Part shown: positions 50,347 through 59,900 of the stretch, one piece after another
Numbering within the stretch: position 1 is the stretch's first letter
Layout: every line of letters begins with the position of its first letter
DNA from: Chelatococcus albus
GTDB lineage: Bacteria > Pseudomonadota > Alphaproteobacteria > Rhizobiales > Beijerinckiaceae
Assembly: GCF_030067675.1 (NCBI RefSeq)
Contig: NZ_JASJEV010000003.1
Location: 186,001 to 250,000 of the forward strand
Length of the DNA: 64,000 nucleotides
Direction: 5' to 3'
Notes under the pieces: model-generated
What the model saw: the letters and a program-made list of their open reading frames with translations, nothing else
Database searches by the model: none
What the model was told of the DNA's origin: nothing
Position numbers and translations under genes: made by a program

Positions 50347-51138
50347 TCAAACGATCGGGGAAGCAAGACGGAAGCGATAGGGAAAGGGGCGGGCGGCCGG
50401 GTCGTCCCGCACGGCCTCCACACCGAAGGCGGCCGTCAAGAGCGCAGGCCGCAGCACCTCGGCCGGCGTTCCCTGGGCGACGAGACGTCCGCCCTGCATC
50501 AGCGCGAGTTGGTCGCAGGCCTCCGCCGCGAGCGCGAGATCGTGCAGGGTGACGAGGATCGTCTTGCCGTGCCCCTCCGCCAGGCGGCGCATGAGCGCGG
50601 CGAGCTCGAGCTGGTGGCGGATGTCGAGATGGTTGGTGGGCTCGTCGAGGACGAGCAGGTCCGGCTCCTGCGCCAGTGCACGGGCGATGGCGATGCGCTG
50701 GCGCTCGCCTCCGGAGAGCCGCGCCACCGGCCGCTCGGCGAGATGAATCGCATCGACCGCTGCAAGGGAGGCCTCGATCGCGTCGGCGTCGCGCCGGCCG
50801 GATCTGGCGAAGCGACCGCGATGCGGCGTGCGGCCCAGCGCCACAACCTCGCGGGCAGGCAGATCCGGTGGCGCCGCACCGTCCTGGACGACTGCGGCGA
50901 TGCGGCACGCCGCCTCGCGCGGCGTCAGGGTCCACACATCCCGCCCGCCGAGGCGGACCACGCCGGTGCGCGGTCGCAATACCCGGTAGACGCAGCGCAG
51001 GAGGGTGGACTTGCCGGCGCCGTTGGGACCGACGATGCCCTGCACCACTCCGGCCGGCACGGTGAAGGATAGGCCTTGAATCACGGGCGCCGCCCCTGGC
51101 GGCCCCCAGGTGAGCGCGTCGACGGCCAGATGCGTCAT
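50347..51138 (-). CDS. ABC transporter ATPase (BtuD/FecE-type)
   Basis: This 263-residue ATPase powers the importer. Walker A is GPNGAGKST, signature LSGGERQRIAIARAL and Walker B LLVLDEPTNHLD, followed by the switch His in LVTLHDLALA. It is the first gene of the operon: riboswitch, ATPase, binding protein, permease. The ATG at 51138 is preferred over one three codons upstream. Confidence 0.93.
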   Translation of the reverse strand: MTHLAVDALTWGPPGAAPVIQGLSFTVPAGVVQGIVGPNGAGKSTLLRCVYRVLRPRTGVVRLGGRDVWTLTPREAACRIAAVVQDGAAPPDLPAREVVALGRTPHRGRFARSGRRDADAIEASLAAVDAIHLAERPVARLSGGERQRIAIARALAQEPDLLVLDEPTNHLDIRHQLELAALMRRLAEGHGKTILVTLHDLALAAEACDQLALMQGGRLVAQGTPAEVLRPALLTAAFGVEAVRDDPAARPFPYRFRLASPIV

Positions 51139-51340
51139 GCAGCACACCGCGCCGCCGAAGGACAGCAGTCACGACAATGGCGAGACTCGAACGGCCGACG
51201 ACGCAGAACGTCGGGTTCCATGCTCTTCTCCCTCACGCGCCCACCGCGCGCCGGATGCGAATGCCATCACGAGGGAGAAGACGGCCCGCCCGCAGAGTGC
51301 AGGCGAGCAGCCGGTCGCCCTCCGCGACGGCGGTTGATGC

Positions 51341-51482
51341 GCGGGCAGGTTTCCTGGCTCGCGGATCTTCGCGCCGGTCGAACCTTCCCGGTTTCCCAGT
51401 GGCCATGCATGACCGGCGCTCACCGCTCACAGTTGCGGGGGCAGCCACGGCTGACGGCGATGCCGCTTCCGTGTTCCCTTTT
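51341..51482 (-). promoter_or_regulatory. Cobalamin riboswitch
   Basis: On the minus strand, the leader contains the cobalamin aptamer core in order: AAAAGGGAACACGGAAG, GCCCCCGCAACUGUGAGCGG (B12-box-like), GCCACUGGGAAACCGGGAAGG and GAGCCAGGAAACCUGCCCGC. It ends about 200 bases before the ATPase gene. Adenosylcobalamin binding would repress the transporter. Confidence 0.92.
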
Positions 51483-51569
51483 AACCCGACTCGCCGTCGG
51501 GCACCCGAGCCCACCCACGCTGGCATTGCGCGGTGCATCTTTCAAGTCGCCTCGTGTCCCATTTAATAT

Positions 51570-51587
51570 GCAATGTTGTAACATTAC
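51570..51587. promoter_or_regulatory. Zur/Fur-like dyad
   Basis: GCAATGTTGTAACATTAC is a near-perfect palindrome with AATGTT / AACATT arms, resembling alphaproteobacterial Zur or Fur-family boxes. It lies between the cobalamin leader (minus strand) and bfd (plus strand) in an AT-rich promoter region. Which gene it controls is unclear. Confidence 0.35.
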
Positions 51588-51753
51588 ATATCTGGATTGC
51601 GTCACGCCGCAACGACCGCTTGCCAGAGCACGTTCCACGCTTATCCACAGGCGATATCCGGCAACCGCATCCATGCACTACCCCGCCACCATGCGACCTT
51701 CGATGCCTTGAAGGGCCCGCTTTCCGCATGTAAGTTCTTGATAAGAAAGGTAT

Positions 51754-51770
51754 TTTTGAATCTCTCTAAA
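51754..51770 (+). promoter_or_regulatory. Candidate Irr (ICE) box upstream of bfd
   Basis: TTTTGAA-TCT-CTCTAAA matches the iron-control element pattern TTTAGAA-N3-TTCTAAA at 12 of 14 fixed positions. It ends 11 bases before the bfd start codon, placing it over the promoter or start. A similar box precedes bfr. Confidence 0.6.
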
Positions 51771-51781
51771 CTGGCTCGCGC

Positions 51782-52090
51782 ATGATCGTCTGCTCCTGCA
51801 ACGTCCTCTCGGACAGGCAGATCCTCTCGACTCTCGACAGCGAGGAGGCCGGCAAGCCCCGCTCACCGGCCCAGGCCTACCGCTGTCTCGGCTGCAGCCC
51901 CGACTGTGGCCGCTGCCTCGTGACCGTGCGGCGCCTCCTCGCCGACGCACGTGGCGCCGCCTGCGATCTCGGCTGCCCGATCTGCCCGAGCGCGCCAGAC
52001 GAGGTGCCTGGCGAAGCGCGCCTGGCCGCGGTAATCTCCCGATCAGAGCCGGCGAACGTGGACCTTCAGCCTCTGATGGCGGCCGAATAA
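51782..52090 (+). CDS. bfd: Bacterioferritin-associated ferredoxin
   Basis: Bfd reduces bacterioferritin iron so that it can be released. The 102-residue protein has the BFD [2Fe-2S] motif: MIVCSCNVLS at the N-terminus (Cys4, Cys6) and CLGCSPDCGRC (Cys35, 38, 42, 45). It is longer than the usual 60-75 residues and has two further cysteines in ACDLGCPICP, whose role is unknown. It is paired with bfr 200 bases downstream. Confidence 0.92.
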   Translation: MIVCSCNVLSDRQILSTLDSEEAGKPRSPAQAYRCLGCSPDCGRCLVTVRRLLADARGAACDLGCPICPSAPDEVPGEARLAAVISRSEPANVDLQPLMAAE

Positions 52091-52245
52091 CGTCGGGTCA
52101 GCCCACCTCTGGACGTCTTGCCCGCGAGCTGCGAGCCTGCAGCCAGGGGCGGAAGTTGTATCGCATGGGCCCTCTCGTGCAGCACGGCCCGGCCCACGCT
52201 GGCGTATGGCGGTAGTGGTTGCCTCTTGATCCGACCGACACTCAG

Positions 52246-52262
52246 TTTATAATTATTCTAAT
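52246..52262 (+). promoter_or_regulatory. Candidate Irr (ICE) box upstream of bfr
   Basis: TTTATAA-TTA-TTCTAAT matches the ICE pattern TTTAGAA-N3-TTCTAAA at 12 of 14 fixed positions, 32 bases upstream of the bfr start. Irr would repress iron storage under iron limitation. Confidence 0.65.
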
Positions 52263-52294
52263 TCCGCAGCCGGAATCGGACAGGAGCGATTGCC

Positions 52295-52774
52295 ATGAAG
52301 GGGGACGCGAAGGTCATCGAGTATCTTAACCGCGGCCTGCGCAGCGAGTTGACTGCCATCAACCAGTACTGGCTGCATTATCGCATGCTGGACAACTGGG
52401 GCTACAAGGACCTTGCCAAGAAGTGGCGCGAGGAGTCGATCGAGGAGATGCGCCACGCCGACCGCTTCGTGGACCGCATTCTGTTCCTCGAGGGGCATCC
52501 GAACCTCCAGGTGCTCGACCCGCTGCGCATCGGCGAGAGCGTCAAGGAAGTGATCGAATGCGACCTCGCCGCCGAGGTTGATGCGCGCGCCCTCTACCAG
52601 GAGGCGGCGACCTACTGCCATTCGGTGAAGGACTATCCGTCCCGCGACCTCTTCGAGGAGCTGATGACGGACGAGGAGGGCCACATCGACTTCCTCGAAA
52701 CCCAGCTCGATCTCATCAAGCAGCTCGGGCCGCAGCTCTACGCGCAGCACCACATCGGCAAGCTCGAAGACTGA
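52295..52774 (+). CDS. bfr: Bacterioferritin
   Basis: Bfr stores iron as a 24-mer with haem between subunits. The 159-residue protein has all ferroxidase ligands (Glu18, Glu51, His54, Glu94, Glu127, His130) and the haem ligand Met52 in [10 protein letters not shown]. Length is standard. A GGACAGGAG precedes the ATG. It lies 204 bases after bfd and has its own putative Irr box, so it may be transcribed separately. Confidence 0.97.
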
Positions 52775-52802
52775 GCGGCGGCGGCATGATGCCAAGCCAG
52801 GC

Positions 52803-52821
52803 GGCCGGCGTTACGCCGGCC
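52803..52821. terminator. Hairpin between bfr and nrsF
   Basis: An 8-bp GC stem (GGCCGGCG / CGCCGGCC) with a TTA loop lies between the convergent bfr and nrsF genes, followed by a moderately T-rich stretch. Confidence 0.6.
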
Positions 52822-52851
52822 GTTCGCATTTCGGCCGTACACAGCCTTGCG

Positions 52852-53490
52852 CTACCAGCGCAGCACGCGGCGGCCGATGGCGGCGCCTGCGACGACGACG
52901 AGGGCGACGGCCAGCGTGTACCAGGTGGCCACGAAGAGCGGCGAGTCGTCGGTGCAGTGCGCGGCATAGAGTGTTGCCCCGATGCCGCCAGCCGCGAGCC
53001 CGGCAACCGCGCCTGCGACGCCGGGCGCAGTTGGCGCGCCGTGCCGCAGGGCGACCAGCAGCGCGGCGAGCGGCGCGAGCGAGAGCGCGGGAATGCTCAC
53101 GAGACAGACGGCCAGGTTGCGTCCGACGAGCCTTGGCCACCATTCCGCCGCCGGCAGGAGGATGAGCTCCGTGGCGACGGCCCCCGCGAGCAGGAGCGGC
53201 GCAAGCAGCAGCACCCTCCCCCGCCCGCGCAGGTCCCGCCCCGGCTGCGCAAGCCTCGGCAGCAGGGCGAGCGCCGTGACGGTGAGACCGAACGCGACGA
53301 CGAACTTGAAGAGGAAGCGCGGTGTTTCCGCAGCCGCAGCAATGTCCGGCCGCGGCCCGAGCGCCATCATGAAGAGCACCGTCGCGGTCACGACGGCGGG
53401 CACCAGGGCCACCGCGCAGACGGTGGCGACCGGAGGGGAGCGCGTCGCCTGATCCTGGACGAGGGCGTCGATCAATTGCGTCGTCTTCAT
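52852..53490 (-). CDS. nrsF: NrsF-type anti-sigma factor (DUF1109)
   Basis: This 212-residue protein has six hydrophobic helices and the NrsF/DUF1109 pattern: MKTTQLIDALVQDQAT, then ATVLFMMALGPRPDI, FKFVVAFGLTVTALAL and AHCTDDSPLFVATWY, with a Cys near the end. In Caulobacter NrsF holds SigF inactive until metal stress. Its start overlaps the sigma gene stop (ATGA), the usual coupling of sigma and anti-sigma. Confidence 0.9.
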   Translation of the reverse strand: MKTTQLIDALVQDQATRSPPVATVCAVALVPAVVTATVLFMMALGPRPDIAAAAETPRFLFKFVVAFGLTVTALALLPRLAQPGRDLRGRGRVLLLAPLLLAGAVATELILLPAAEWWPRLVGRNLAVCLVSIPALSLAPLAALLVALRHGAPTAPGVAGAVAGLAAGGIGATLYAAHCTDDSPLFVATWYTLAVALVVVAGAAIGRRVLRW

Positions 53491-54041
53491 TCCCCCACCC
53501 TCCCGAAGCGCGCCGCCAGCGCCTTGAGCCCCCGGTGCAGGGCGACGCGCACGGCGCCGTCGCTCATGCCGAGGCGCCGCGCCGTTTCCTGAATGCTCGC
53601 GCCCTCGACGGAAACCGCGCGGACCACGGCCCGCTGCCCCTCGCTCAGAACGGCCAGGAGGCGATCGATCTCGCGCCCTGACAGTTCCTCCCCCTTGGCG
53701 CCGTCCGGCAGGCTGTCGGCGACTTCCTCGATGGGAACTTCAACACCCTGCTTGCGGCGGCGCAGGTTGTCGATGAGCTTGTTGCGAGCGATGGCGGCGA
53801 CCCAGGGCCCGATCGGGGCGGAGGGATCCCATGTGTGCCGCTTGATGTGGATCGCCAGAAGCGCCTCCTGCACGACATCCTCCACCTCGCCTGCCGAGGT
53901 CATCCCGACACGTGCGAACCCGCGGCGGACGATGCTGCGCAGAACCGGCGCGAGCCCCTGCAGCAATCGGCGATAGGCGGCCGGATCGCCCACGTTCGCC
54001 GCGCGCATCAGCGCCGCCCATTCGTCCTCGCGGTCTTGCAC
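53487..54041 (-). CDS. ECF sigma factor (SigF-like)
   Basis: This 184-residue ECF sigma factor has region 2 (EVEDVVQEALLAIHIKRHTW with the promoter-melting segment) and region 4 (VEGASIQETARRLGMSDGAV-type helix-turn-helix). A GTG at 54041 after GAGGGATC is the likely start; the open frame upstream begins with TTG. It is divergent from the bufferin operon and cotranscribed with nrsF. It probably drives both promoters (see the matched promoter motifs). Confidence 0.9.
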   Translation of the reverse strand: MQDREDEWAALMRAANVGDPAAYRRLLQGLAPVLRSIVRRGFARVGMTSAGEVEDVVQEALLAIHIKRHTWDPSAPIGPWVAAIARNKLIDNLRRRKQGVEVPIEEVADSLPDGAKGEELSGREIDRLLAVLSEGQRAVVRAVSVEGASIQETARRLGMSDGAVRVALHRGLKALAARFGRVGE

Positions 54042-54059
54042 GATCCCTCTGTATCCTTG

Positions 54060-54085
54060 TTCGGCACGCCGCAGCTTGCTGTTAC
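54060..54085 (-). promoter_or_regulatory. SigF-type promoter of the sigma/anti-sigma operon
   Basis: On the minus strand GTAACA-N16-CGAA (54080-54085 and 54060-54063) lies just upstream of the GTG start. The same pattern precedes bufA1 on the opposite strand, and it agrees with the GTAACC-N16-CGAA motif described for Caulobacter SigF (recollection). Confidence 0.65.
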
Positions 54086-54152
54086 GCCGATGTGAGATCA
54101 ATCACACAGCCGTGAGACGCAAAACCCGCCCGGACACAGCTGCGTGAGCGGC

Positions 54153-54178
54153 GTAACGGCGCGTCCCCTCCCCGCGAA
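54153..54178 (+). promoter_or_regulatory. SigF-type promoter of the bufferin operon
   Basis: GTAACG (54153-54158), 16 bases, then CGAA (54175-54178) lies about 48 bases before the bufA1 start. Spacing and sequence match those of the divergent sigma-gene promoter exactly, implying one sigma factor for both. Confidence 0.7.
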
Positions 54179-54226
54179 GAAGTGGACATGGGCTGCAGTC
54201 GCGGTCCGCATCAGGGAGACAGGACG

Positions 54227-54559
54227 ATGAATCGCCGCTCAGTCACCATTGCCCTCGCCGGCTCCATCGCAACCGCACTCGCCATGATCGGCGCACCGGC
54301 GCGGGCGCAGGATGCCGCGATGGAGAAAATGATGAGGGACACCGGAGAGGCCATAAAGGCCGGCAAGGTTGAGAAGTGTTACGGCATCGCCCTCAAGGGG
54401 CAGAACGACTGCAAGGCGGGAGCCGGGACCACCTGCGCTGCGACCAGCAAGGTCGACTACCAGGGCGACGCCTTCAAGATCGTGCCCAGGGGAACCTGCG
54501 TGACCGTCCAGACGCCGCACGGCCCCGGATCGCTCGAGCCGATCAAGCGGCCCTCGTGA
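54227..54559 (+). CDS. Bufferin precursor 1 (DUF2282, BufA-like)
   Basis: This 110-residue product has a signal peptide ([20 protein letters not shown], cleavage near ARAQ) and a mature domain with four cysteines (51, 62, 70, 91) in [18 protein letters not shown] and GTC. DUF2282/BufA proteins are RiPP-type metallophores whose cysteines are converted to thiooxazoles by the MNIO enzyme and partner encoded downstream, and which bind copper. A GGGAGACAGG precedes the ATG. A second precursor follows directly. Confidence 0.9.
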
Positions 54560-54609
54560 CACACGCCCCGCCGACCACCCCGCAACCGCAAGCGTCCGGG
54601 AAACGCTCC

Positions 54610-54903
54610 ATGATCAAGTCTGCCACCGCCCTCGCGCTGGCCAGCGCCGTCACCGCCATGCTCGCCGCCGCTGCGTCCAGCTCCGGCGCCGCCGAAGGGA
54701 AGGAGAAGTGCTATGGCGTCGCCCTCAAGGGGCAGAACGATTGCGCAGCCGGGCCCGGCACGACATGCGCCGGGACGGCGAGGATCGACTACCAGGGCAA
54801 CGCCTGGAAGTACGTCGCCAAGGGCACGTGCGTGACGATGGAGCTGCCGGGCGGCCGCAAGGGCGCGCTCGAGGCACTGAAGCGCGACCTGCCCAAGGTC
54901 TGA
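54610..54903 (+). CDS. Bufferin precursor 2 (DUF2282, BufA-like)
   Basis: This 97-residue product is a paralogue of the gene before it, with a signal peptide ([20 protein letters not shown]) and cysteines at 34, 45, 53 and 74. The spacing 11-8-21 is identical to that of precursor 1, and EKCYG(I/V)ALKGQNDC and VDYQG/IDYQG are shared. It lies 50 bases after precursor 1 and 69 before the modifying enzyme, with a hairpin in the latter gap. Confidence 0.88.
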
Positions 54904-54912
54904 GACGCCGCT

Positions 54913-54946
54913 CCCTTCCCCCCGCATCCTGAGGCGAGGGGAAGGG
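54913..54946 (+). terminator. Hairpin between precursor genes and bufB (possible attenuator)
   Basis: A 9-bp stem (CCCTTCCCC / GGGGAAGGG) with a 16-base loop lies between precursor 2 and the MNIO gene. Without a T tract it may stabilise the upstream message or partly reduce readthrough, so that precursors exceed enzymes. Confidence 0.45.
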
Positions 54947-54972
54947 CCCGTCGGATCGAAGGAGATGCCGCC

Positions 54973-55881
54973 ATGCTGCCGACCTCGATTGCCGCGGCCA
55001 TTCCCGCCCGCGCCGGCGTGGGGCTGAAGCCCGAGCACTATCGTGCCATCCTCGAGAGCGCGCCGGATGTCGCTTTCTTCGAGATCCATGCCGAGAACTA
55101 CATGGGCGCAGGCGGGCCGCCGCACCGCTATCTCGAAGCGATCCGCGCCCGCTATCCGATCTCGCTGCACGGGGTTGGCCTGTCGATCGGCGCCGACCGC
55201 GCCCTTGATCGCGAGCACCTGGCGCGGCTGCGCGGCCTCGTCGAGCGCTACGAGCCCGGCCTGTTCTCCGAGCACCTCGCCTGGTCGACGCACGACACGG
55301 GATTCCTCAACGACCTTCTGCCCGTGCCCTACACGAGGGCGACGCTCGAACGCGTCTGCGACCACGTGGACGAGGCGCAGGAGGCCGTCGGGCGGCGCAT
55401 GCTGCTCGAGAATCCGTCGACCTATCTGGTCTTCGCCGAAAGCACGATCCCCGAGGTCGATTTCCTCGCCGAGGTCGCCGCCCGCACCGGTTGCGGCCTG
55501 CTCCTCGACGTCAACAACGTCGAGGTCTCGGCGACCAACCATGGCTACGACCCGACGGCCTATCTCGATGCCTTTCCCGCCGAGCATGTCGGCGAGATCC
55601 ACCTCGGGGGCTTTGCCGCGACCACCGACGACAGGGGCGCGCGCCTGCTCATCGACGCGCATGGCTCGCCGGTCGACGACAGGGTCTGGGCGCTCTATCG
55701 CCATGCCCTCGGCCTCTGCGGCGCCGTGCCCACCTTGATCGAATGGGACAACGATGTGCCCGCCTGGCCGATCCTCCACGCCGAGGCACGCCGGGCGGAC
55801 GCATTGCTCGCGCGGGTGGCGGCGCGGCCGCACGGCGAGCGTCGGGCAGCGGAGGATCTCCATGGCACCCACGCTCTCTGA
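54973..55881 (+). CDS. MNIO-family (DUF692) bufferin-modifying enzyme, BufB-like
   Basis: MNIO enzymes are multinuclear non-haem iron oxygenases that modify cysteines of precursor peptides. The 302-residue protein has the metal-binding pattern: [63 protein letters not shown] and IEWDND. GAAGGAGATGCCGCC precedes the ATG. It overlaps bufC by 20 bases. Confidence 0.92.
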
Positions 55882-56665
55882 GATCCAGGCGGCCTTCGCC
55901 GCAGCCCTCGTCGATCCCGCATTGCCGGTGCCGGACGGGCTCTGTGGCCCCGGCGGCGGGCCGGCCGCGCGCCGCTTCGCCGTCTATCGCAACAATGTCG
56001 TGGTCGGGCTGACGGAGGCACTGCGCGCGCGCTTTCCCGTGACCGACCGTCTCGTCGGGCCGGAGTTCTTCGGCGCAATGGCGCGAGCCTATGTCGCGGC
56101 TCACAAGCCGGCGTCGCCGCTGCTCATGCACTACGGCGACGACCTTCCCGACTTCATCGCCGCCTTCGAGCCGGCGGCCATCATCGTCTATCTCGCCGAT
56201 GTCGCACGGCTCGAAGCGGCCTGGTCGCAGGCCTACCATGCGGCCGAGGCGGTCCCGATCGGAATCGCGGCGCTCGCGGCGATCCCCACGGACGAACTCG
56301 CATCCGTTCACCTGACACTCCACCCTTCGCTGCGCCTCTTGCATTCCGCGCATCCCGTGGCCTCAATCTGGGCCGCCCACCAGACGGATGGGCCGGTCAT
56401 GCCGCCCGAACCGTGGGAGCCGGAGGACGTCCTCGTGGTGCGGCCGGAGGCGGAGGTGCTGGTCCATCGCCTGCCCGCGGGCGGTCTCGCCTTCCTCGCG
56501 GCGCTCGAGGCCGGCGCGCCCCTTGGTGTCGCGGTCGAAAGGGCGACTGCCGCCGCACCGGCCTTCGACCTCCCCCGCAATCTCGCCGGCGCCTTCGAAG
56601 CCGGCGCAGTGATCGCCGCCAGCATCAGCGCTGCTGTGCAAGCCCTTGCGGAGACATGTCCATGA
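55862..56665 (+). CDS. DUF2063 partner protein, BufC-like
   Basis: This 267-residue protein has the DUF2063 N-terminal domain ([51 protein letters not shown]), which is thought to recruit the precursor to the MNIO enzyme. The start overlaps bufB and its stop overlaps the DoxX start (ATGA), so the block is translationally coupled. Confidence 0.9.
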
Positions 56666-57195
56666 CAGATGCCATTGATCAGGCGACGCACCGTTCGGCC
56701 GCCGACGCGGTGGCTCGGTTCATCGCCCGTGCCGACGTGCTTCTCGGGCGTTTCCCGGCGGCGCTCGTGCAGCTCGTCCTGCGTTTCACCGTCGCCCTTC
56801 CCTTCTGGCGATCCGGCCTGACCAAGTGGGACGGCTTCCTTGAGCTGTCGGACGGCGCCGTCTTCCTCTTCCAGGAGGAGTTCCGGCTGCACATCCTCGG
56901 CAGCACCTACCCCTTCCCCTTCCCGACCGCGGTCGCCTTCGTCGCAGGTTGCGTGGAGATCGTGCTCCCCATCCTGCTCGTCCTCGGCCTCGGGACACGC
57001 TTCGCCGCCCTCGGCCTCCTGGTGATGACCGGCGTGATCCAGCTCACCGTGCCTGACGGATGGGCGACCTATCACCTCCCCTGGGCGGCGATGCTGCTGG
57101 CACTTGTCGCCTATGGCGCGGGGAAGGTCTCGCTCGACCATTGGATCGGCGCCCGGCGCATGAAGGCGGCGGCCGACCGCAGCGGACCGGCCTGA
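56662..57195 (+). CDS. DoxX-family membrane protein
   Basis: This 177-residue protein has four transmembrane helices and the DoxX pattern (RFTVALPFWRSGLTKWDGFL, AGCVEIVLPILLVLGLG, ALGLLVMTGVIQL). DoxX proteins end bufferin/gig-type clusters; its role is unknown. Overlap with bufC makes it the last gene of the operon. An ATG at 56656 is also in frame. Confidence 0.9.
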   Translation: MTDAIDQATHRSAADAVARFIARADVLLGRFPAALVQLVLRFTVALPFWRSGLTKWDGFLELSDGAVFLFQEEFRLHILGSTYPFPFPTAVAFVAGCVEIVLPILLVLGLGTRFAALGLLVMTGVIQLTVPDGWATYHLPWAAMLLALVAYGAGKVSLDHWIGARRMKAAADRSGPA

Positions 57196-57203
57196 CCGCC
57201 GCG

Positions 57204-59900
57204 TCACTCCAGGTGAAGCGTCACGACGCGGATGTCCGGGTCCTCGGGATCGAGCGAGATGCGGAAGCCGAGCTTCTCGCACATGGCGAGCATCATCGTG
57301 TTCTCGCGCAGCACCTGCCCCTCGATGATCTTGAGCCCCTCCGCCCGGGCATAGTCGATCATCATCTCCATCAGCACCCAGCCGAGACCGCGGCCCTTCA
57401 GGTCCGAGCGCACCATGATGCCGTACTCGCCCTTGTCGTAGTTGGCATCGGCGTGGAGGCGCACCGCGCCCAGCATTTCGCCGCTCGCCTCCTCGATGGC
57501 GACGAAGGCCATGGCGCGGGCATAGTCGAGCTGGGTCAGGCGGGCGATGAAGGAATGGCTGAACTCCTTCACGGGCGCAAAGAAGCGCAGGCGCAGGTCC
57601 TCGTCGGTCTGACGCCCGAAGAAGGCGCGGAACATGTCTTCGTCTTCCGGCCGCACGGGCCGGATGAACACGGATGCACCGTCGTTGAGCGCCGTGCGCC
57701 GTTCCCATTCCGCCGGATAGGGGCGGATGGCGAAGCGCGGATGGCCGGCCGGCCCCTTGCGACCGGCGGCGACCGGCGCGACGACGACGCGCGCATCGAC
57801 GGCAATGACGCCGTCCTTGTCGGCGAGCAGGGGGTTGATGTCGAGCTCGCGCACCTCAGGCAGGTCGGCGGCGAGCTGCGCGAGCTTGACGAGCACCAGC
57901 CTGATCGCGTGCTCGTCGGCCGCCGGCACGTCGCGATAGGCCTTGAGGACGCGCGAGACGCGCGTGCGCGCGATCAGCGTCTCCGCGAGCTTGAGGTCGA
58001 GAGGCGGCAGCGCCAGCGCCTTGTCGTTGATGACCTCGACCGCCGTGCCGCCCCGCCCGAAGACCACCACCGGCCCGAAGGTCGGATCGTCGGCAAGGCC
58101 GGCAATCAGCTCGCGCGCCTTGGGCCGGAGGATCATCGGGTGGACGGTGAGACCGGTGATGCGCGCGTCCGGCCTCGCCTCACGCGCACGAGCAAGGATC
58201 CCGGCCGCGGCCTCGCGCACCGCCTTCTCGCTCGTGAGGTTGAGCCGCACGCCGCCGACGTCCGATTTGTGCACGATGTCGGGTGACAGGATCTTCACGG
58301 CGACAGGAACGCCTTCGGCAAGGAACGGCGCGGCAGCCACCGCCGCCTCATCCGTGTCGCGCGCGAGAACCGTCGGCGTGATCGGGATCTGATAGGCGGC
58401 AAAGAGCCGGTCGATCTCGACGGGATCGAGCCAGGTCCGCCCCTCCGCCACGGCGGTCTCGACGATTGCTTTGGCCGCGGGCACATCCGGCACGAAGTCC
58501 TTCGGCAGGCTGGGCGGCGTCTCCATGGAGAGATCGCGCGCCTCGCGATAGCGGACGAGATGCATGAAGCCCTGCACCGCATCCGCCTCGGTGGCGAAAT
58601 GCGGAATGGCGGCGGTCTCGAACAGATCGGACGCCGCTCCGTCCTCGCCGATCCATACGGCGAAGACCGGTTTCGACCGGAAGGATTTCTGCCGCTCGCG
58701 GCGCGTCGCCTCGACGACGGCCTCCGCCGCCTCGACCGAGGAGGCAAGAGCCGTGGGCACGTTCATCACCAGGATGGCGTCGTTCTCCGGATCGGCGAAG
58801 AGGGCCTCCAGGGCGAGCCCGTAGCGCCCCGCATCGGCGTCGCCGACGATGTCGATGGGATTGGCCCCCGACCAGGTGGGCGGCAGCACGGCGTCGAGGC
58901 GCGCGCGCGTTTCGTCGGAGAGCGTCGCGAGCGCCCCGCCGAGGTCGATCAGGCGGTCGACGGCCAGCACACCGACCCCGCCGCCGTTGGTGAGGATGGC
59001 GAGCCGCCCGCCCGGGAAGGGCTTCAGGCGGCCGAGGGTTTCGGCCGCGGAGAAGAGCTCGTCGAGATCAAGGACGCGCAGAAGGCCGGCGCGTCGGAAC
59101 GCGGCATCGTAGACCGCGTCGGAACCGGCGAGAGCGCCGGTGTGCGTCATCGCCGCCTTCGCCCCCTGGGCATGGCGCCCCGACTTGACGACGACGACCG
59201 GCTTGGCACGCGCGGCGGCGCGCGCCGCCGACATGAACTTGCGCGCGTCGTTGATCGACTCGACATAGAGCAGGATGGCGCGCGTGCCGCGGTCGAGGGC
59301 GAAATGGTCGAGCAGGTCGCCGAAATCGACGTCGAGCTTGTCCCCCAGCGACACGACCGCCGAAAAGCCGACGGAGCGCGCCGCCGCCCATTCGACGAGC
59401 CCCGCGGCGATGGCGCCGGACTGCGACACGAGTGCGAGATCGCCGGCCCGCGGCATGCGTGCGGCAAAGCTCGCGTTCAGCCTGGCGGCTGGCGCCATCA
59501 CGCCGAGACAGTTGGGGCCGACGAGGCGCAGGCCGTGTGCGCGCGCAGCCTTCTCCGCCTCCGCCGCCAGCGATCCCGGCCCGTGCCCGAGGCCGGCGGT
59601 GATGACGACAGCGGCAGCCGCCCCCTTGGCGCCCGCCCGGGCCAGGATCCCCGGAACGCTGTGCGGCGGCGTGGCGACGATGACGACGTCCGGCGCCTCG
59701 GGCAGCGCCTCGATGTCCGGCACCGCTGCGCAACCGTCGAGTTCCGTGTAGCGCGGATTGACGAGACGGATCGTGCCGGCGAAGCCACCCTGGCGCAGGT
59801 TCTGCAAGACGGTGCGGCCAAGCGAGCCCGGCCGGGGACTTGCGCCGACGAGGGCGACCGAACGGGGGGCGAAGAGCTTGTCGAGGCGATAGGTGCTCAT
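57204..59900 (-). CDS. Acyl-CoA synthetase (NDP-forming) fused to GNAT protein acetyltransferase
   Basis: This 898-residue protein has the layout of Pat/PatZ-type lysine acetyltransferases. The CoA-binding domain opens with SVALVGASPRPGSLGRTVLQNL. Succinyl-CoA-ligase-like parts (SQSGAIAAGLVEWAAAR, KSGRHAQGAKAAMTHTGALAGSD) lack an obvious catalytic His. An ATP-grasp region lies around residues 490-700. A C-terminal GNAT domain (FIRPVRPEDEDMFRAFF, RSDLKGRGLGWVLMEMMI) follows. Such enzymes acetylate acetyl-CoA synthetase and others. It converges closely with the DoxX gene. Confidence 0.92.
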   Translation of the reverse strand: MSTYRLDKLFAPRSVALVGASPRPGSLGRTVLQNLRQGGFAGTIRLVNPRYTELDGCAAVPDIEALPEAPDVVIVATPPHSVPGILARAGAKGAAAAVVITAGLGHGPGSLAAEAEKAARAHGLRLVGPNCLGVMAPAARLNASFAARMPRAGDLALVSQSGAIAAGLVEWAAARSVGFSAVVSLGDKLDVDFGDLLDHFALDRGTRAILLYVESINDARKFMSAARAAARAKPVVVVKSGRHAQGAKAAMTHTGALAGSDAVYDAAFRRAGLLRVLDLDELFSAAETLGRLKPFPGGRLAILTNGGGVGVLAVDRLIDLGGALATLSDETRARLDAVLPPTWSGANPIDIVGDADAGRYGLALEALFADPENDAILVMNVPTALASSVEAAEAVVEATRRERQKSFRSKPVFAVWIGEDGAASDLFETAAIPHFATEADAVQGFMHLVRYREARDLSMETPPSLPKDFVPDVPAAKAIVETAVAEGRTWLDPVEIDRLFAAYQIPITPTVLARDTDEAAVAAAPFLAEGVPVAVKILSPDIVHKSDVGGVRLNLTSEKAVREAAAGILARAREARPDARITGLTVHPMILRPKARELIAGLADDPTFGPVVVFGRGGTAVEVINDKALALPPLDLKLAETLIARTRVSRVLKAYRDVPAADEHAIRLVLVKLAQLAADLPEVRELDINPLLADKDGVIAVDARVVVAPVAAGRKGPAGHPRFAIRPYPAEWERRTALNDGASVFIRPVRPEDEDMFRAFFGRQTDEDLRLRFFAPVKEFSHSFIARLTQLDYARAMAFVAIEEASGEMLGAVRLHADANYDKGEYGIMVRSDLKGRGLGWVLMEMMIDYARAEGLKIIEGQVLRENTMMLAMCEKLGFRISLDPEDPDIRVVTLHLE

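Follow-up and report, generated by a model that had tools for sequence, protein, structure and literature searches.

Organization of the buf locus

The window analysed here is a stretch of 64,000 nucleotides from Chelatococcus albus (contig NZ_JASJEV010000003.1, positions 186,001 to 250,000 of the forward strand). At window positions 52852-57195 it carries a locus, here called buf, of seven genes in two divergent operons, with sigF and nrsF on the minus strand and bufA-bufA'-bufB-bufC-doxX on the plus strand (Table 1). All seven are present as open frames, and each matches its own Pfam family well above the cut-off. These matches bear out a sequence-only reading of the same DNA, which had described two BufA-like precursors, an MNIO enzyme, a DUF2063 partner and a DoxX protein divergent from an extracytoplasmic function (ECF) sigma factor and an NrsF-type anti-sigma factor. 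The interval given there, 53487-57195, was slightly too narrow and omitted nrsF, though the gene was named in the text. bufB is the sole MNIO gene of the genome, and bufA and bufA' are its only DUF2282 genes. The same architecture was found in dozens of proteobacterial loci by neighbourhood comparison. By analogy with such systems, the product of the cluster is probably a small periplasmic metal-binding peptide that soaks up copper.

Table 1. Features of the buf locus, in window coordinates.
Feature	Position	Strand	Supporting match
nrsF, membrane anti-sigma factor, 212 aa	52852..53490	-	PF06532 2.3e-58
sigF, ECF sigma factor, 184 aa, GTG start proposed	53487..54041	-	PF04542/PF08281, NF009165
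sigF-type promoter of sigF-nrsF, GTAACA-N16-CGAA	54060..54085	-	exact core match to Caulobacter consensus
sigF-type promoter of buf operon, GTAACG-N16-CGAA	54153..54178	+	exact core match to Caulobacter consensus
bufA, first precursor, DUF2282, 110 aa	54227..54559	+	PF10048 2.2e-23
bufA', second precursor, DUF2282, 97 aa	54610..54903	+	PF10048 3.4e-24
9-pair hairpin in the gap between last precursor gene and bufB	54913..54946	+	fold -32.1 kcal/mol, z -1.37 (weak)
bufB, MNIO (DUF692) maturase, 302 aa	54973..55881	+	PF05114 1.7e-105
bufC, DUF2063 and RRE-type partner, 267 aa	55862..56665	+	PF09836 2.6e-28
doxX/gigT-like membrane protein, start 56656 or 56662	56656..57195	+	PF07681 2.2e-15

Maturation enzymes and accessory genes

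BufB scores 388.5 bits against NF050167, the 'MNIO family bufferin maturase' model (cut-off 310). When BufB is aligned to the solved relative 3bww, its residues N182, D228 and H230 correspond in position to N175, D242 and H244 of HvfB, three residues that HvfB requires for forming thiooxazole (PMC13419390). BufB N182, D228 and H230, together with H66, E100, H101, E146, D179, H210 and E257, are invariant in 109 homologues, so that every metal-site position checked is conserved. The downstream bufC gene, for a DUF2063-RRE partner of PME type 1, overlaps bufB by 20 bases and is itself overlapped by doxX. A search with the BufC sequence against solved structures gave no match, but comparison of folds did: the AlphaFold2 model of BufC (pLDDT 94) matches TglI (8hci/8hi7) and NGO1945 (3dee), which are partners of MNIO enzymes. 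Between the stop codon of the last precursor gene and the bufB core start, folding is stronger than in shuffled sequences (z < -2) in 27 of 73 loci. The hairpin seen here at this place could possibly raise the level of precursor over that of enzyme, as a stoichiometry element.

Sigma factor, anti-sigma factor and promoters

SigF passes the cut-off of NCBIfam model NF009165 (1.2e-75), and NrsF reaches 197.8 bits against PF06532, for which the cut-off is 26.8; the two genes overlap by 4 bases. Within an alignment of 35 homologues, NrsF Cys129 is kept in 100% and Cys179 in 97%. Both of these periplasmic residues are equivalent by position to C131 and C181 of Caulobacter NrsF, the sensing cysteines whose replacement releases SigF (PMC3511200).

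The gap of 185 bases between sigF and bufA holds one sigF-type site facing each operon. Both sites depart from the Caulobacter consensus, GTAACC-N16-CGAA (PMC3511200), at the sixth base (A and G, respectively). The core pattern GTAAC-N17-CGAA has six matches across the genome of 4.0 Mb, among them the two divergent promoters of this locus, and a reversed control pattern has 13, i.e. the motif is not enriched genome-wide. What lies beyond chance is the placement and correct orientation of the two sites, rather than the frequency of the motif. Similar sites, often as divergent pairs, occur in the sigF-bufA gap of many relatives. The minus-strand promoter (54085-54060) falls inside the long frame opened by TTG at 54101; that start is therefore improbable, and GTG at 54041 is the likely start of sigF. 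The other four strict matches in the genome do not precede any clear metal-stress gene. For this reason, and in view of the higher count for the control pattern, a wider SigF regulon was discarded, and the switch looks private to the buf cluster as judged from promoter matches. Among the genome's six matches, no sigF-type site was recognised before a YedY-like gene.

Two divergent precursors

The first precursor most likely begins at ATG 54227, which sequence inspection favours over a GTG at 54182. BufA and BufA' each contain four cysteines in the Buf1 arrangement with like spacing, Cys2-x7-Cys3 being common to both. According to the published Buf1 model, modification takes place on the central pair of cysteines, and a disulfide joins the outer pair. 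BufA has a spacer of about 20 residues ahead of its first cysteine, longer than that of BufA'. The cores of the two proteins are 66% identical. A tree of 120 precursors separates them by a branch with 100/97 support: BufA groups with precursors from two genomes of the same family (G001/G044) and from Afipia, Caballeronia and Dyella (support 97/72), and BufA' lies near Xanthobacteraceae and Afifellaceae types. A recent tandem duplication of bufA was rejected because of this core identity and well-supported split, each gene being nearer to genes of other organisms than to its neighbour.

We compared the pair with precursors of relatives, whose neighbourhoods were retrieved via bufB or DUF2282 in samples chosen by similarity; the tandem pairs are mutually related. 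Tandem precursors as such are already recorded in the literature; they are a minority, two close DUF2282 genes being present in 6 of the 49 DUF2282-bearing genomes of the family sample. The Cys2-Cys3 loop is 7 residues long in 92 of 93 single-copy precursors and 8 in the remaining one. Across nine tandem pairs, the loop of the first gene has 6 residues in 7/9 and that of the second gene 7 residues in 8/9, and three further pairs from another family of the order, picked after the pattern had been noticed, show 6 then 7 in all. The short-loop first copies cluster in the precursor tree. Tandem pairs in relatives thus usually appear heterotypic in sequence, with the 6-residue loop first and the 7-residue loop second. 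A literature search that was not exhaustive turned up no description of two loop types in tandem precursors. As a rule for the Chelatococcus pair the short first loop fails, since this pair is 7/7.

Several individual loci may be noted. An AxHxC-like first loop of 6 residues and a GTTC second loop of 7 occur in L005, L013, L017, L022, L036, L092, L128, L129 and L130. At L131 (genome G223) two DUF2282 genes stand 1.4 kb apart, both with a 6-residue loop, and no bufB was detected nearby. At L126 (G002:C270) a DUF2282 gene is divergent from sigF-nrsF, with no bufB in the stretch examined; bufA-bufB-bufC of that genome are located on a different contig (L127).

Insertion context

In three other genomes of the genus (G018:C8, G058:C9 and G090:C7; L144-L146), bfr and an acyl-CoA synthetase-GNAT gene, the latter named by sequence inspection rather than family search, are convergent neighbours, and the roughly 100 bases that separate them hold a hairpin. 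In the window, 4.43 kb separates these genes (52774-57204), and the complete buf cluster lies in the interval. All three congeners examined lack the cluster and have its flanking genes next to each other, which means that it was acquired or lost as a unit. Gain is weakly favoured over loss because the nearest relatives of BufB (71-77% identity; 85% SH-aLRT, which is not strong) are found in Xanthobacter, Ancylobacter and related metagenome-assembled genomes, and because one of the congeners, G090, bears a different bufferin cluster elsewhere. The latter was rejected as an orthologue: its location differs, it carries only one bufA, and the two BufB proteins do not group together. No foreign base composition was seen in the cassette, GC being 0.65-0.72 throughout with no step at the borders, where no mobile element was recognised by eye. 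Genes for iron handling adjoin the metal-buffering cassette: upstream, at 50347-52774, are bacterioferritin and a bacterioferritin-associated ferredoxin-like gene, together with a minus-strand gene that on inspection resembles an ABC-transporter ATPase.

A bufferin cluster with a predicted switch of its own

Bufferins are a recently recognised and widespread copper defence, and the enzymes that make them are unusual multi-iron enzymes. From the family matches, the fold of BufC, the conserved residues, the promoter pair, the shared architecture and the published relatives, we conclude that the locus forms a complete bufferin cluster of the Buf1 type, controlled by a private ECF switch, and give this full explanation a probability of roughly 0.9. 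Gene content and order, family membership, active-site and sensor residues, promoters, partner fold and insertion context are properties of this locus itself, and its induction, chemistry, metal, export and benefit would follow those of characterised relatives. The two NrsF cysteines would probably sense envelope metal stress, upon which NrsF would let SigF go, and SigF would drive transcription in both directions from the paired GTAAC-N17-CGAA promoters. BufB, as an iron enzyme, and BufC, as its recognition partner, may then turn the central cysteines of both precursors into metal-chelating thiooxazoles. The Sec signal would serve as both leader and export signal, the mature peptides would buffer copper and possibly other soft metals in the periplasm, and DoxX may have an accessory membrane role. 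The peptide had earlier been predicted to be secreted, which here would mean Sec export to the periplasm, not release from the cell.

Several observations weigh against parts of this explanation. The apparent Sec signals of both precursors, each with a charged N-terminal end, a hydrophobic stretch and an Ala-x-Ala-like site, were judged by eye. Neither precursor passes the NCBIfam models (BufA' scores 26 bits against the BufA2 model, cut-off 60), and DoxX stays at 65 bits against the HvfX family model NF050144, for which the cut-off is 80. NrsF matches the equivalog model NF042994 AntiSigF_NrsF over its full length with 96 bits, below a narrow cut-off of 300; for this reason it is filed as 'NrsF family', not as a proven equivalog. 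Finally, Caulobacter sigF is reported to be induced by chromate and cadmium, and metal resistance there did not require sigF or its targets, so copper is not certain to be the physiological signal.

An alternative is that the main role of the cluster is in oxyanion, oxidative or sulfur stress, chromate being an example, with copper binding secondary. In Caulobacter, chromate and cadmium induce the sigF regulon, of which a YedY-type protein is a member (PMC3511200), and DoxX proteins have been linked to oxidative or sulfur stress. However, copper and gold induce the gig genes (PMC10304878), Buf1 binds Cu(I)/Cu(II), and no sigF-type site was recognised before a YedY-like gene in the Chelatococcus genome; we regard a primarily oxyanion-directed role as quite improbable. 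Decay or silencing of the cluster is hardly credible: its absence from the same site in three congeners shows that it is dispensable in the genus, but all seven frames are intact, the catalytic and sensor residues are conserved and the promoters are intact.

We put forward only tentatively that one BufBC pair makes two bufferins from different branches of the family as a functional set, whose loops or spacers may give complementary metal sites or affinities and which in relatives is ordered short loop first and long loop second. Alternatively, only one precursor, most likely BufA' next to bufB, is the true substrate, and the other stays in the periplasm as a thiol peptide without modification. 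BufA' is the type nearest to single-precursor loci, BufA has the longer spacer and comes from a different lineage, and the landscape paper allows that some tandem precursors remain unmodified. Yet all four cysteines and the DUF2282 core are kept in both proteins, and the relatives of BufA in Afipia, Caballeronia and Dyella themselves adjoin MNIO genes, which makes a single substrate unlikely. The locus is in itself one further example of a bufferin cluster. It may be used as a compact test case in which one enzyme pair faces two natural, divergent substrates, and the whole cassette has a clean empty-site comparison in sister species.

Comparison with known systems

The sequence-only reading is largely supported, and the promoters add evidence that was not part of it. 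The likeness to the Caulobacter sigF/nrsF and gig loci that it had pointed to is correct for the families and the divergent layout but not for the number of precursors. Caulobacter vibrioides (crescentus) CC3252-CC3257 shares nrsF-sigF divergent from DUF2282-MNIO-DUF2063-DoxX (PMC3511200), the GTAAC-N17-CGAA promoters on both sides and the two NrsF cysteines. It has one precursor gene, against two here, and in Caulobacter sigF also governs another cluster (CC2907-CC2905) and a YedY target, neither of which was found here. The gold- and copper-induced gigPABT-rpoQ-rsqA divergon of Cupriavidus metallidurans (PMC10304878) contains the same families in the same order, with a single gigP instead of two precursors; control by RpoQ has not been demonstrated in Cupriavidus. 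The HvfABC oxazolin/captophorin systems of Haemophilus and Neisseria share an MNIO enzyme, a DUF2063-RRE partner and a Sec-signal precursor, and make 5-thiooxazole in connection with copper. Their precursors belong to another family, with EGKCG motifs, and SigF/NrsF genes are not described as part of those clusters.

The nearest complete clusters by BufB identity are in Hyphomicrobiales (L033, 73%, and L035, 71%) and share nrsF, sigF, bufA, bufB, bufC and doxX, with one bufA only. Two bufA genes between sigF and bufB are shared with L005, L013, L017, L022, L092, L128 and L130, whose first copies carry an AxHxC-type loop of 6 residues between Cys2 and Cys3, whereas both loops have 7 residues here. 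The system is of a known kind, in a slightly unusual small variant that combines two different precursors with gain or loss as one block between neighbours.
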